From IMG/VR virus record IMGVR_UViG_3300036846_000566, positions 1 through 44,739 of that record: DNA of 44,739 bases. The stretch is one strand, 5' to 3'. Each line of letters begins with the position of its first letter. Position 1 is the stretch's first letter. This DNA comes from a virus. Below the pieces are notes generated by a model that saw only the letters and a list, made by a program, of their open reading frames with translations, had not been told where the DNA came from and did no database searches. Below are positions 42 to 32,467 of this stretch, piece by piece. The position numbers and the translations under genes were made by a program.

Positions 42-638
42 ATGGGGGAGAACGTCGCGGGCGCACGGCTCAGCGTCGGGTCTTCGTCGGCGTCGTGGCC
101 CGCCGCCAAGATCGTCAAGCGCCGGCTGTCGCAGCTCAAGCCGGCACCGCGCAACGCGCGCCAGCACAGCGAGCGCCAGATCGAGCAGCTCGTGGCGTCG
201 TTCAAGCGCTGGGGCTGGACGATGCCGGTGCTGGTCGACGAGGGCAGCGAGATCATCGCCGGGCACGGCCGCGTCGAGGCGGCGAAACGGCTCGGCATCA
301 CCGTGGCCCCGACTGTGGTGGCGCGCGGCTGGACGGACGAGCAAAAGCGCGCCTACGCCATCGCCGACAACAAGCTGCCGCTCAACGCGACGTGGGATGA
401 CGAGCTGCTCTCGGCCGAGCTGATCGATCTCTCGTCAGTCACCAGCATGGTCGAGCTGGGCTTCTCGACCGCCGAGCTTGCCCGACTGCTCAAGCCGATC
501 GGCGAGGCCGCCGCGCCGCAGCTGGGCAACGCGCTGGAGCATCGCATCATCGTCGAGTGCAAGAGCGAGACGCACCAAGCCGAGCTGCTGGAACGCTTCG
601 AGCGCGAGGGGCTCAAATGCCGACCGTTGATCTCCTAG
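42..638 (+). CDS. ParB/Srx-fold DNA-binding or nuclease-like protein
   Basis: A 198-residue protein with the ParB N-terminal fold. The core signature is IIAGHGR at residues 71-77, preceded by the LKPAPRNAR and QIEQLVASFKRWGW segments and followed by the DEQKRAYAIADNKL helix, as in phage ParB-like proteins. No partition-type helix-turn-helix domain and no ParA partner are visible, so a plasmid-style partition role is unlikely. The ATG is preferred over an upstream TTG at position 3 because GGTGGA lies just before it. The gene overlaps the next one by 22 bases, so the two are probably translated together. Its place beside an ABC-GNAT protein and an ASCH protein suggests DNA-targeting in a base-modification cassette (inference). 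Confidence 0.8.
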   Translation: MGENVAGARLSVGSSSASWPAAKIVKRRLSQLKPAPRNARQHSERQIEQLVASFKRWGWTMPVLVDEGSEIIAGHGRVEAAKRLGITVAPTVVARGWTDEQKRAYAIADNKLPLNATWDDELLSAELIDLSSVTSMVELGFSTAELARLLKPIGEAAAPQLGNALEHRIIVECKSETHQAELLERFEREGLKCRPLIS

Positions 639-1735
639 TCGAGAGCCCGCTCAGCCATTCGCCGCGCGCCCGGCAGCTCGAAGCGATGTTCGACGTGCCG
701 CAACAGGAGCGCGCCAAGCTCGAATGGAAGGGCGAGCTGCCGATCGAGGGGCGGCCCTGGTCGGTCGGCTTGATCGTGGGCCCATCGGGGGCGGGCAAGT
801 CGACGATCCTGCGCAGTGTGTTCGGGGAGCCGCGCACGTTGGGCTGGGGTGGCGCGTCGGTGATCGACGATTTCCCGGCGTCTCGTTCAATGAACGAGAT
901 CGCAGCGGCGTGTCAGGCGGTCGGCTTCAACACCATCCCGGCGTGGTTGCGACCCTATGGCGTGCTCAGCAACGGCGAGCGCTTCCGGGTGGAGCTCGCG
1001 CGGCGGCTGCTCGAGGACGGGGATCTGATCGCCGTCGACGAATTCACCAGCGTCGTCGATCGCCAAGTCGCCCAGATCGGGGCGCACGCCGTGCAAAAGA
1101 TCGTGCGCAAGACCGACCGCCGCTTCGTCGCCGCGTCGTGCCACTTCGACATCGTCGAATGGCTGCAGCCCGATTGGATTCTGGAGCCGGCGACGATGGC
1201 GTTTCAATGGAGGTCGCTTCAACGACGGCCCGCCGTGGCGATCGAGCTGCGCCGCGTCGATCACAAGCTGTGGCAGCTATTCGCGCCGTTCCACTATCTG
1301 ACCGCCGAGCTTGCCCGCGCCGCGACGTGCTGGGCGCTGTTCGTCGGCGAGCAGCCGGTGTGCTTTGCGGGTGTTCTGCATCGGCCGCACGCGCGACGGC
1401 GCAACATCAAGGGCATCAGCCGCGTCGTGACGCTGCCCGACTGGCAGGGGCTCGGGCTCGCGATGGCGCTGTGCGACATGCTGGGCGGGCTCTATCGCGG
1501 CATCGGCCAGCAGCTCAACATGTACCCGGCCCATCCGAGCTTCATCCGCTCGTTCGACCGCTCGCGGCGCTGGCGGCTGGAGCGCAAGCCGGGGACCTTC
1601 TCGCCGCGCCAGGGCCGGACGAGCACGCTCAATCGGATGGGCTACGCGTCGCGCCCGTGTGCGGTGTTCGGCTACTGCGGCGAGAAGCTCGAGGATGCTG
1701 CGTTCGCTGCGGCGGTGTCAGCACGATCGCCATGA
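617..1735 (+). CDS. ABC-type ATPase fused to a GNAT-like acyltransferase domain
   Basis: A 372-residue two-domain protein. The N-terminal half is an ABC ATPase: Walker A GPSGAGKST (55-63), signature LSNGE (117-121), Walker B LIAVDE (137-142) and an H-loop-like CHFD (175-178). There are no membrane segments, so it is not a transporter. The C-terminal half (about 205-335) looks like a GNAT fold: beta strands around CWALFVGEQPVCFAGVL, then RVVTLPDWQGLGLAMAL, which resembles the acyl-CoA binding motif A. This architecture matches what I know as COG2401 (ABC ATPase fused to a predicted acetyltransferase). Mu Mom, a DNA-modifying enzyme, is also GNAT-like, so base modification or anti-restriction is a reasonable but unproven role. 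ATG at 617 has GAGGGG upstream. Confidence 0.8.
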   Translation: MPTVDLLVESPLSHSPRARQLEAMFDVPQQERAKLEWKGELPIEGRPWSVGLIVGPSGAGKSTILRSVFGEPRTLGWGGASVIDDFPASRSMNEIAAACQAVGFNTIPAWLRPYGVLSNGERFRVELARRLLEDGDLIAVDEFTSVVDRQVAQIGAHAVQKIVRKTDRRFVAASCHFDIVEWLQPDWILEPATMAFQWRSLQRRPAVAIELRRVDHKLWQLFAPFHYLTAELARAATCWALFVGEQPVCFAGVLHRPHARRRNIKGISRVVTLPDWQGLGLAMALCDMLGGLYRGIGQQLNMYPAHPSFIRSFDRSRRWRLERKPGTFSPRQGRTSTLNRMGYASRPCAVFGYCGEKLEDAAFAAAVSARSP

Positions 1736-1985
1736 CCTCGCTGCCCGGCGGGTACAGGCCGGCGACCTCGGGCACGTCGTCGCTGATCGTCAGCTCGACG
1801 CCGGCCACGAAGGCGTAAAGGCGCGGCCCGGAGTAGCCATAGCTCAGCACGACGGCGCGGCCGTGATGCACCTGCCGCTCGTTCCAGCGTCCGCCGAGCA
1901 GGCGATATTCGATGCGCTTGCGGCCTTCGGCGAAGGCCAGCCAGTGCTCGCGCTTGAGCGGCACAAAGAGGGGCTTTTCATCCAT
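1629..1985 (-). CDS. ASCH/PUA-like domain protein, opposite strand
   Basis: A 118-residue protein whose first 85 residues read as an ASCH domain: LFVPLKREHWLAFAEGRK, then IEYRLLGGRWNER and GRAVVLSYGYSG. ASCH belongs to the PUA-like fold, several members of which bind RNA or modified bases. The last ~35 residues are Arg/Ser/Thr-rich and are encoded antisense to the 3' end of the ABC-GNAT gene, so they may simply be read-through to the first stop. No good ribosome-binding site is seen at the ATG; a GTG at 2006 would overlap the TerS start. It is the only leftward gene in the first 26 kb. With ParB and ABC-GNAT it forms a candidate modification/reader set (inference). Confidence 0.7.
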   Translation of the reverse strand: MDEKPLFVPLKREHWLAFAEGRKRIEYRLLGGRWNERQVHHGRAVVLSYGYSGPRLYAFVAGVELTISDDVPEVAGLYPPGSEVMAIVLTPPQRTQHPRASRRSSRTPHTGATRSPSD

Positions 1986-1999
1986 TCGAGAGGGGTAGC

Positions 2000-2530
2000 A
2001 TGGCACGCCGAATCAGCGCCAGGAAGGTTCCGGTTGTGCTCAACCGCCTGCATGGCAACCCGTCAGGCCGCCGGATCAGCCCGCAGACGCCCGAGGGTGT
2101 CGGCGTGCTGCTGGAGCCGCCCTCGCACTTCGACGACGATCAGCGCGCGCAATGGCATCACGCGATCGACAACGCGCCGATCGGCCTGCTCACCGAAACC
2201 GATCGCGTCATCCTGACGGCGTGGGTGGTGGCGGTCGTCGAGCACCGCACGGCGACGATCAAGGTTCGCGAGCTGGGGCAGCTCGTGAAGACCGCCGACG
2301 GCAACCTGATCCAGAACCCCTATCTGCCGATTATCAACCGGCAAGCCGTGCTGATCCGCCAACTCGCCAACGAGATGGGCTTCACGCCCGCGTCGCGCGC
2401 CTCGATCGGCAGCCACATCGGCGCGCCGGTCGACGGGCGCACCGTGTCGGGCTTCAGGCGCTCGTCGACGCTCAGCGACTTCATCGAAGCGAGCCCCGAT
2501 GCCCCGCCGCCGTCGCCCACCAGTCATTGA
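2000..2530 (+). CDS. terS: Terminase small subunit, P27 family
   Basis: A 176-residue protein that recognises phage DNA and loads it on the large terminase. The pattern is that of P27-type small subunits: N-terminal LNRLHGNPSGR, a central helical segment WHHAIDNAPIGLLTETDRVIL, and the conserved GQLVKTADGNLIQNPYLPIINRQ with GFTPASRASI near residues 100-135. The start has GAGAGGGG nine bases upstream. The 3' end overlaps the large-subunit start by 32 bases, normal for a co-translated terminase pair. Confidence 0.92.
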   Translation: MARRISARKVPVVLNRLHGNPSGRRISPQTPEGVGVLLEPPSHFDDDQRAQWHHAIDNAPIGLLTETDRVILTAWVVAVVEHRTATIKVRELGQLVKTADGNLIQNPYLPIINRQAVLIRQLANEMGFTPASRASIGSHIGAPVDGRTVSGFRRSSTLSDFIEASPDAPPPSPTSH

Positions 2531-4181
2531 CGAGACGACGGGCTATGCCCGCGCCGTGCTGGCGGGCAAGGTGCCGGCGTGCCGGCTGGTCAAGCTGGCG
2601 TGCGAGCGCCACATGCGCGACCTCGCCACCGGCGCCGAGCGCGGGCTCACGTGGAAGCCGGCGTCGGCGCAGCACCACATCGCGTTCTTCAGCCGCTTCC
2701 TGCATCACAGCAAAGGCGAATGGGCGCGCCAGTCGATCGAGCTGGGCTGGTGGCAGAAATTCGTGGTCGGCTCGGTGTACGGCTGGAAGCGCGCCGATGG
2801 CACGCGGCGTTATCGCTACGTCTACGAAGAAGTGCCGCGCAAAAACGGCAAGTCGACCAAGCTGGCGGGCGTCGGGCTCGACATGCTGCTTTGCGACCAC
2901 GAGCCAGGGGCCGAGGTCTACGCCGCCGCGACCAAGCGCGATCAGGCGCGCATCATCTTCGACGAGGCGCGGCGCATGGTGGCGTCCAGCCCGCATCTCG
3001 CGCAGTCGATTACCCGCTACAAGCTCAACCTCAGCGTGGCGGCGACCAGCTCGAAATTCGAGCCGCTCAGCTCGGACGATCGGACGCTCGACGGGCTCAA
3101 CCCGCATTGCGTGCTGGTCGACGAGCTGCACCGGCACAAGACGCGCGCTCTCTTGGACGTGCTCGACACCGCGATGGGCGCGCGCCGCCAGCCGCTCCTG
3201 TGGATCATCACGACGGCGGGCGACGACGACCCCGAGTCGGTCTACGCCTCGGAGAACGACTACGCCGTGAAGGTGCTCGAAGGCGTGGTCGAGGACGACA
3301 ACGTCTTCGCGTTCATCGCCACGGTCGACAAGGGCGATCGCTGGGACGATCCGATCACCTGGGCGAAGGCCAATCCCAACCTCGGCGTCAGCGTGAAGCG
3401 GGAAGACTTGGAGCGGCAGGCGCTCAAGGCGAAAAAGAGCGCGGGCGCGCTGCTCGCCTTCAAGCGATTGCGGCTCAACGTGCGCAGCTCGTCGACCGAG
3501 CGCGTGATCGACATGGCGAAGTGGGCGCAGAACACGCGCGGTCGCTTCGATCCCGATCACGACATGCTCGGTAAGCGCTGCTATGGCGGGCTCGATCTCT
3601 CAAGCAAGATCGACATCACGGCGTGGGTGAAGCTGTTCGAGCCAGACGAGAGCGGCATCCTGCGGGTCGCCTGCCGCTTCTGGATGCCGGGCGACACGAT
3701 CGAGCTGCGCGCCGATCAGGATCGCATGCCCTATCGCCAGTGGGTCGACGAGGGATGGATCGAGGCGACGCCGGGCAACGTCATCGACCACAGCGAGATC
3801 AGGGCGGCGATCGAGGGCGACGCCAAGCGTTTCGAGATCGTGTCGCTGGCCTTCGATCCATGGAACGCGACGCAGCTCGCCGTCGAGCTGCAGGACTCGG
3901 GGATCGAGGCCGTCGAATTCGTGCAAGGCATCCGCACCTACACCGCGCCGACGAAGGAGCTGCAGGCGCTGGTGTCGTCGTGCAAGCTCGATCACGGCAG
4001 CAACCCGGTGCTCACCGTCATGGCGCACAACATGAAGGTGCAGCACGACAAAAACCTCAACCAGATGCCCCACAAGAAACACTCGACGGGGCGAATCGAC
4101 GGCATGACCGCGCTGATCATGGCGCTCGGTCGGCGGATGGCGGTCGCCAACGATAGCGACCCCCAGGTGTTCTACATCTAA
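2499..4181 (+). CDS. terL: Terminase large subunit
   Basis: A 560-residue DNA-packaging motor and headful/cos nuclease. Walker A is EVPRKNGKST (111-120) and Walker B is CVLVDE (204-209), with a coupling-motif-like IITTAGDD near 237-244. The nuclease domain begins at CYGGLDLSSKID (361-372), where D366 is the likely first metal ligand, and extends to the C-terminal MTALIMALGR. Length and motifs fit the HK97-like (Terminase_1) large subunits. It works with the overlapping TerS at the portal vertex. Confidence 0.95.
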   Translation: MPRRRRPPVIDETTGYARAVLAGKVPACRLVKLACERHMRDLATGAERGLTWKPASAQHHIAFFSRFLHHSKGEWARQSIELGWWQKFVVGSVYGWKRADGTRRYRYVYEEVPRKNGKSTKLAGVGLDMLLCDHEPGAEVYAAATKRDQARIIFDEARRMVASSPHLAQSITRYKLNLSVAATSSKFEPLSSDDRTLDGLNPHCVLVDELHRHKTRALLDVLDTAMGARRQPLLWIITTAGDDDPESVYASENDYAVKVLEGVVEDDNVFAFIATVDKGDRWDDPITWAKANPNLGVSVKREDLERQALKAKKSAGALLAFKRLRLNVRSSSTERVIDMAKWAQNTRGRFDPDHDMLGKRCYGGLDLSSKIDITAWVKLFEPDESGILRVACRFWMPGDTIELRADQDRMPYRQWVDEGWIEATPGNVIDHSEIRAAIEGDAKRFEIVSLAFDPWNATQLAVELQDSGIEAVEFVQGIRTYTAPTKELQALVSSCKLDHGSNPVLTVMAHNMKVQHDKNLNQMPHKKHSTGRIDGMTALIMALGRRMAVANDSDPQVFYI

Positions 4182-31262: not shown

Positions 31263-32467
31263 CACGCGACCCTCCCGATCCGAGAGATCGCGCGCTCAGC
31301 TCGACGACGACGATCGCGCTCTTTGGTGTAGAGCCGAGTCTCGGCCGTCGTCGTGTGGTTCAAGAATTGCTGCGCGTCAGTCTCGTTGCCATCGGCGTCG
31401 ATGATCGCCGTCGCGCCGCGCTTGCGGAAGCTGTGCGGCCCGACACCCTCGACGCCCGCCTGCTTCGCCCAGCGTCGCATCATGTCGCTCAACGTGCTGT
31501 CGCTCTTGTACGGCAGTCCGTTGCCCTGAGTGATGAAGGCGAAGTCGCCATGGGGCGTTGCTGCGATCGAGCGCGCGAGATCGGGATGCACGGGCAGACT
31601 CTGCAACTTGTCGTGCTTGAGCTTGCGCTTGATCGCCTGCGAGCCCTTGCCCTTCGACTCTGTCCACGTGATCCACCCGCGCTTCACGTGCTGCGGCCCG
31701 AGCCCCACGAGATCGCTCACGCGTGCCCCTGTATAGAGCGCGAGATCGAACGCGAGACGTTGCGGCGTGCCGAGCCGCCACTTGCGGCAGATCGCGGCAT
31801 GCTGATCGTCGTCGCAGCGCTTGAAGCCCTTCTGATCGTCGCGCAGCTTGCCGAGATGGGCCGCCGGGTTGACGTGGTCGAAGTGCCCGACCTCGATTGC
31901 CCAGTAGAACATCGCGCGCAGGGCGACGATCACACAGTCGGCCTTGCCGGGCGTGGCGGCAAAGCGCTGGCGAATGCGCAACACGCCCTCTTTGGTGATC
32001 GTCGAGAAGCGTATGTCACCGACGATGGCGTCCGGCCCGTTCTTTGGATAGAGCAGAGCGCACACGTCGCGCAGCTGGCGCGAGTGCGCCTTCTGTGTCT
32101 TGAGCTTGCACGACAGATATTGCGGCGACTTCTCGAATTGCTCGACGAGCCACAGCAACGTCGAGCTTTCGATCGATTGCAGCGGCGCGAGACGCTGATA
32201 CTCGGGGCGCTCGCTCGGGCGCGTGATCGCCTTGCCGTTGTCGTCGAGCTTGCCGACGCGCTCGACGCTGCCCGATGCCCGCCAGCGCTCGACCATGCCG
32301 ATCGCCGCTTGCAAGCTCTGCTGATACGCGCGCGTCGAGGGGTCGACTCCCGCGAGCGTCTTCTTTGGCCCGCCCTTCACGGGTCGATAGACGTGGATGG
32401 GGACGAAGTCGCCCCGCTTGTTCTTTCGGCGCGTGACGAGAACGCCCCTGGCTACCTGAGTTGGCAT
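31262..32467 (-). CDS. int: Tyrosine-type site-specific integrase
   Basis: A 401-residue phage integrase. Catalytic residues are R249 (TGARVSDLVGL), H345 and R348 (PHSFRKRG), H371 (FLNHTTTAE) and the nucleophile Y380 (TRLYTKERD); K284 or K288 in the KLKHDK hairpin is the likely lysine. An arm/core-binding N-terminal part (1-210) contains the SAM-like AIVGDIRFSTITKEGVLRI region. It catalyses integration at attP/attB. AAAGGATCAA lies before the ATG. It has its own promoter and possible operators at 32494-32548. Confidence 0.95.
   Translation of the reverse strand: MPTQVARGVLVTRRKNKRGDFVPIHVYRPVKGGPKKTLAGVDPSTRAYQQSLQAAIGMVERWRASGSVERVGKLDDNGKAITRPSERPEYQRLAPLQSIESSTLLWLVEQFEKSPQYLSCKLKTQKAHSRQLRDVCALLYPKNGPDAIVGDIRFSTITKEGVLRIRQRFAATPGKADCVIVALRAMFYWAIEVGHFDHVNPAAHLGKLRDDQKGFKRCDDDQHAAICRKWRLGTPQRLAFDLALYTGARVSDLVGLGPQHVKRGWITWTESKGKGSQAIKRKLKHDKLQSLPVHPDLARSIAATPHGDFAFITQGNGLPYKSDSTLSDMMRRWAKQAGVEGVGPHSFRKRGATAIIDADGNETDAQQFLNHTTTAETRLYTKERDRRRRAERAISRIGRVA

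Follow-up and report, generated by a model that had tools for sequence, protein, structure and literature searches.

A phage ParB/ABC-GNAT cassette with a probable role in the acylation of DNA bases

The cassette that precedes the terminase genes of the virus record IMG/VR IMGVR_UViG_3300036846_000566 (44,739 nt, the whole of which is referred to here as the window) is probably a phage DNA-modification system, in which the tail of a ParB protein would dock an ABC-GNAT enzyme, a base would be acylated and an ASCH protein would read the mark. This interpretation is drawn from sequence comparisons and structural models, and is based on a ParB with a dedicated tail, an intact enzyme and the exchange of the cassette with other genes at the same site. 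The features of the window are as follows.

42..638, plus strand: ParB/Srx-fold protein, 198 aa (ATG at 42, stop at 638), with the ParB core domain at about residues 20-150 and a C-terminal tail beyond
516..638, plus strand: ParB C-terminal tail, partner-specific module (residues ~159-198)
617..638, plus strand: 22-nt overlap of parB and abc-gnat
617..1735, plus strand: ABC-GNAT gene (ATG at 617, stop at 1735)
617..1198, plus strand: ABC ATPase domain of ABC-GNAT
1199..1735, plus strand: GNAT acyltransferase domain of ABC-GNAT
1629..1985, minus strand: ASCH-fold protein, 118 aa, phrog_625-like, convergent with ABC-GNAT and divergent from TerS
2000..2530, plus strand: TerS, terminase small subunit, a neighbour outside the system
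2499..4181, plus strand: TerL, terminase large subunit, a neighbour that served to find phages of the same clade
31265-32467, minus strand: integrase

The initial annotation had the coordinates and the domain calls (ParB, ABC-GNAT and ASCH before TerS) correct; for the ASCH gene the minus strand was retained and the start was moved from GTG 2006 to ATG 1985. The open frame extends from 2006 to 1629 (minus strand), and the ATG is likely to be the start, because relatives start there too. The last 107 nt of this gene are antisense to the 3' end of ABC-GNAT. The window phage also carries an endolysin and a primase/helicase-like gene and, judging by these and the integrase, is probably temperate. 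As full-length homologues were found across many phages and phyla, the cassette is not a chance arrangement.

The ABC-GNAT protein of the window matched phrog_11143, labelled 'unknown function', over its whole length (E 2.8e-93), and Pfam searches returned ABC_tran (E 8.5e-9) and Acetyltransf_1 (E 0.005, below the Pfam cut-off). The ABC half contains Walker A (G55-x-S-G-x-G-K61), the signature LSNGE (117-121), Walker B (D141-E142) and the H-loop (H176), the full motif set of a working ATPase. Within the GNAT half, HY at 226-227, R269 and P274 are all conserved, and the CoA-binding motif reads Q277-G-L-G-L-A282 (family form Q277-x-x-G-x-A/G). Catalytic positions were 99-100% conserved over 128 dereplicated sequences including the window, with Walker A, signature, Walker B, H-loop and GNAT motif A all present in the window and near-invariant. 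An AlphaFold model of the GNAT domain, generated from a 52-sequence alignment (pLDDT 90), had the strand and helix order typical of GNAT, and the 50 PDB matches listed by Foldseek were all acetyltransferases or GNAT-like proteins, which agrees with the original assignment of the C-terminal domain as GNAT-like. The closest folds included RimI and Naa80, both protein acetyltransferases.

Matches were found in 67 annotated phage records (Gordonia, Streptococcus, Pseudomonas, Leptospira, Aeromonas and others), the weakest covering the ABC half alone, and contigs of viral and bacterial-genome origin from many phyla contained homologues as well. Alignment queries were required for the scans of viral contigs, a single-protein query yielding 2 loci for ABC-GNAT and 0 for ASCH. 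Cultured phages with ABC-GNAT include Gordonia Sisko, Gordonia Yago84, Lactococcus P335 and Leptospira biflexa LE4; ABC and GNAT are two separate genes in Streptococcus and Lactococcus phages. Public records name members of the family 'iron siderophore transporter' or 'hemin importer', yet a function as an ABC transporter was rejected, as Pfam identified no membrane domain and a GNAT domain is attached.

The window ParB matched Pfam ParB_N (E 4.6e-6) and phrog_620 (E 9e-49), and the G-x-x-R box of the ParB_N fold is present as GHGR. Among the 122 dereplicated loci whose upstream sequence was long enough, 113 had a ParB adjoining ABC-GNAT, a figure that describes relatives of the window's branch, the sample having been picked by similarity to the enzyme. 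The exact 22-nt overlap was the commonest arrangement (45/122 dereplicated, 72/175 before dereplication), and ParB, ABC and GNAT were fused in a single ORF in two loci, L111 and L166. No ParB was located beside ABC-GNAT in the large phages Vibrio vB_VmeM-32 and AsFcp_2 or in the small P12024S, and some loci, mainly from large phages, had neither ParB nor tail.

The tail, representing the last ~40 residues of the protein, was in frame with a ParB core in 108 loci. Full ParB was absent from Mu-like phages (Porphyromonas 011a and Pseudomonas Komp_PAO1_1) and from two gut phages, where the start of ABC-GNAT is accompanied by a short frame encoding scarcely more than the ParB tail, a microprotein of ~40 residues. 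A tblastn search with a tail query detected 17 phages, every one carrying ABC-GNAT and with the tail at its gene start, and the tail profile was unmatched by the ParBs accompanying methylases, TAGT or Mom (five tested). The window ParB core was 54-60% identical to ParBs at methylase/TAGT loci of related phages and less similar (42-52%) to the ABC-GNAT-linked ParBs compared, whereas the alignment ended at residue ~150 against the former and at 196-198 against the latter. The ParBs of Gordonia phages Sisko and Evaa share 60% identity as far as residue 163 and diverge beyond it. The ParB core goes with the phage and the C-terminal tail with the enzyme, and the tail may dock ABC-GNAT. The Porphyromonas phage 011a protein DBA55097.1 (L010:4870-4998), recorded as an 'acr candidate', is a 42-residue ParB-tail microprotein overlapping ABC-GNAT, and its anti-CRISPR label is probably wrong.

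Phages of the window's clade were gathered by TerL, mostly at 70-77% identity with a distant few at 31-37%, and the slot before TerS was compared. It was occupied by ParB and ABC-GNAT in L222, L226 and L231, and by ABC-GNAT cut off by the contig end in L233. In L223, L225 and the distantly related L235 the same slot held a fusion of ParB with an N6/N4 methylase, and in L234 a ParB followed by the TET-associated glycosyltransferase TAGT (606-1625; PF20691, E 1e-39). The ParB-methylase fusion of L223 (L223:1-3616) is followed by a dioxygenase of the Asp/Arg-hydroxylase type (PF05118) and a PLP-dependent enzyme, a gene set that looks like another putative base hypermodification pathway. The pattern was repeated in the Gordonia phages: the Sisko slot contains ParB, ABC-GNAT and a formyltransferase and the Evaa slot contains ParB, a ParB-methyltransferase and a methyltransferase, both preceding homologous terminases (53% identity). 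The DR-cluster Gordonia phage CaiB is reported to encode, ahead of the terminase, a ParB together with a TET/JBP module and further enzymes of base modification (PMC9302106). The left flanks of Porphyromonas phages 011a and 012a are 87.6% identical across 4.7 kb, up to the swapped gene; the insert before the common right end is ABC-GNAT and a formyltransferase in 011a and a Mom homologue in 012a. Exchange with accepted DNA modifiers in these three series favours DNA as the substrate. The initial suggestion that the cassette targets and modifies phage DNA is consequently the best reading of a slot shared with DNA-modification genes in three phage groups.

According to PMC7824862, Iyer et al. 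(2013; its reference 136) predicted that proteins joining a GNAT to an ABC ATPase place an uncharacterised acyl modification on a DNA base, and the kind of system described here is, on that account, a known prediction. The example given in PMC7824862, QAX98348.1, is the Aeromonas AsFcp_2 protein (locus L013); it is about 31% identical to the window ABC-GNAT and collinear with it, with all core motifs in common, and so the window protein belongs to this ABC ATPase-GNAT family, for which the same reaction is predicted. The ParB with a dedicated tail, the mom and methylase exchanges and the PanD, CoA-transferase, formyltransferase and ASCH partners go beyond the prediction as restated there, although some may be contained in Iyer et al. 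(2013). It had been stated at the outset that no characterised system with exactly this composition was known; no experimentally tested ABC-GNAT modification was found in the literature search, in keeping with that statement, but the enzyme had already been predicted as a DNA acyl-modifier in what PMC7824862 restates. No modified nucleoside reported for any phage of the family was found in the literature searched; the report on Serratia phage eta, consulted as potential evidence, describes no modified base, and the Leptospira LE3/LE4 paper contained no restriction data. Descriptions of an exchangeable ParB tail, tail-only microproteins, direct mom replacement or donor-gene and ASCH partners were not found in a search that covered literature other than Iyer et al. 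(2013) itself.

Mom of phage Mu (structure 8bv8), whose product is N6-carbamoylmethyl adenine, is a DNA modifier of the GNAT superfamily and has the HY motif in common with ABC-GNAT, and the Mom of Porphyromonas 012a occupies the exact site of ABC-GNAT and formyltransferase in 011a. However, Mom has neither an ABC domain nor the canonical Q-x-x-G-x-G CoA motif, while ABC-GNAT lacks the ELNRMW and SFAD motifs of Mom. Kinship with Mom, which the initial annotation had raised, was not upheld, the profile similarity being insignificant (hhalign probability 1.2, E 0.044, 47 columns); none of the 50 viral fold matches listed for the GNAT domain was named Mom. In Microbacterium phage Appa (L216:2469-3621) the gene for a Mom homologue shares 8 nt with the ParB gene upstream of it, and Mom can therefore be ParB-linked too. 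ParB-DNA methyltransferase fusions (phrog_498) have a ParB core 54-60% identical to that of the window and lie in the same genomic slot; partners of the ParB-methyltransferase, CmoX and DpdB types differ from the window cassette in enzyme and ParB C-terminus. DpdB is a ParB-type protein accompanying a studied DNA modifier, according to the summary in PMC12839542, and phage CmoX is accompanied by a ParB-type protein (PMC12783734). No cognate nuclease was detected in the cassette or among its annotated recurrent immediate neighbours.

Genes that might supply an acyl donor were present directly 3' of ABC-GNAT in some loci. One is PanD (aspartate decarboxylase; PF02261, E about 1e-30), in which the G-S cleavage site was kept wherever the N-terminus was complete. 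It pairs in this position with a CoA-transferase family III protein (L064:1781-2823, L083:1838-2967 and L008:5960-7209), the phage protein being shorter than the Pfam model at ~235 residues. A formyltransferase (PF00551) lies directly 3' of ABC-GNAT in other loci; Sisko gp3 (L001:1814-2464), annotated as 'tRNA-methyltransferase', groups with these formyltransferases. A simple reading of these gene sets is that the subclass with PanD and CoA-transferase would make beta-alanyl-CoA as the donor and that formyl would be added in another. In E. coli the GNAT protein PanZ matures PanD, and, by analogy, PanD next to a GNAT might instead echo the PanZ-PanD maturation pair. A match to the GNAT fold was also seen for the viral protein A0A8S5PZ92, which is named aspartate 1-decarboxylase and may be PanZ-like or a fusion of GNAT and PanD. 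PanD, CoA-transferase and formyltransferase were all absent from the window phage. A literature search for PanD or CoA-transferase linked to phage DNA modification found none.

The window ASCH protein had no Pfam match. Its AF2 model (pLDDT 86) gave the ASCH structures 3iuw, 5y6c and 2z0t as top PDB matches in Foldseek (E 5e-4 to 4e-3), in agreement with the ASCH call of the initial annotation. An ASCH gene was immediately downstream of ABC-GNAT in 26 of 120 dereplicated loci, on the opposite strand in 23, and ASCH as an obligatory partner was rejected on this frequency. The proposed co-occurrence of three genes thus holds for ParB and ABC-GNAT, which are nearly always together, with ASCH as an option. 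Gene order in Pasteurella Pmp13 is identical to that of the window, ASCH included, and Streptococcus MismyG has an ASCH of a different family on the same strand ahead of the terminase. Among the TerL relatives, some on contigs that are short upstream, ASCH was present in 4 of 5 with ABC-GNAT sequence and in 0 without it. The association of ASCH is real yet optional.

The window ASCH protein is similar to ZmASCH, TRIP4 and YqfB in predicted fold and in the conserved G-x-K-x-x-E-x-R motif, and forms its own small family near phrog_625. The E. coli ASCH protein YqfB hydrolyses N4-acylcytosines (PMC6972931), a chemistry that would mirror a GNAT writer, and the ASCH protein could accordingly be imagined as an eraser, a YqfB-like amidohydrolase stripping acyl groups from acylated bases, rather than a reader. 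This was considered unlikely. In a comparison aligned through the G-x-K motif, not through structure, the Lys-Thr-Glu catalytic triad of YqfB was not matched: the residue corresponding to the Thr24 nucleophile is Glu26, without exception in the window's ASCH family, and most Pfam-ASCH partners have Glu there as well. YqfB-like catalysis is thus unsupported, and this Glu makes a reader more likely than an eraser.

A terminase was located within 4 kb downstream of the cassette in 56 of 94 loci and upstream in 1 of 71. Proximity is common but not general, Mu-like and other phages carrying the cassette away from the terminase, and the suggested coupling to packaging gained no support. Members of the phrog_645 ('RNase E') family often lie between ABC-GNAT and TerL (L060, L077, L080, L105 and 17 others).

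In the proposed mechanism the ParB core would sit on phage DNA and the tail would dock ABC-GNAT there, which may be likened to ParB loading ABC ATPases of the SMC type. ATP binding would close the ABC dimer on DNA and present a base, and the GNAT domain would move acyl from acyl-CoA to a base amino group, adenine N6 and cytosine N4 being the obvious candidates. The acyl mark would protect phage DNA against host restriction, and the ASCH protein would most likely bind the marked base.

Several points speak against DNA modification: GNATs act mostly on proteins or small molecules, the literature searched gave no modified nucleoside for the family, some loci have neither ParB nor tail, the profile resemblance to Mom is insignificant, and the window carries none of the putative donor genes. 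ABC-GNAT may instead acylate a protein (host RNA polymerase, a nucleoid protein, the terminase or ParB), with ParB bringing it to DNA-bound targets and host machinery being redirected; the phage GNAT phiKMV Rac is reported to act on RNA polymerase, as cited in PMC7824862, and RimI and Naa80 are among the closest folds. Against this, the family shares its site with mom, N6/N4 methylases, TAGT and TET/JBP modules in three phage groups and has likely acyl-donor genes at some loci, and protein acylation appears a rather slim prospect.

ParB loads SMC onto DNA, and the cassette could by this precedent be a partition or DNA-condensation module, in which ParB loads the ABC ATPase in SMC fashion on phage DNA and the GNAT is regulatory; an ABC domain with no membrane domain in Pfam and the close terminase would fit. 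Such a module is very improbable, as the CoA motif and HY pair of the GNAT are near-invariant, as for a working enzyme, the Mu-like phages have the tail alone without the ParB core, and no ParA was found among the annotated recurrent neighbours of the cassette, the window gene after ParB being ABC-GNAT. A defence or toxin module directed against competing phages or the host, with the GNAT as toxin and the ABC domain as sensor, was judged highly unlikely too. Variable slots of this sort often house defence genes, and Mom domains fused to nucleases are described (PMC7824862), but the cassette is without a nuclease or antitoxin partner, its swap partners are modification enzymes, and it is present in phages such as Leptospira LE4, described as lytic in the title of PMC6078989.

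DNA modification, the preferred reading, has consequences for the family. The slot exchanges tie ABC-GNAT to DNA modification by position, beyond fold, for a family predicted in 2013 and for which a tested product, donor or partner logic was not found in the literature searched. The tail swap suggests what ParB may do next to modification enzymes, a role described as unknown in PMC12783734. Tentatively, phage ParBs may be a shared platform for many DNA-modifying enzymes, with a swappable tail that picks the enzyme, and the ABC-GNAT branch may produce acylated bases of a new class, possibly of a beta-alanyl type in the subclass with PanD and CoA-transferase and formylated aminoacyl in another. 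To our knowledge neither mark is known in DNA. The PanD, CoA-transferase and formyltransferase partners point to specific masses of modified nucleosides, and the cultured carriers make the chemistry of ABC-GNAT directly accessible.
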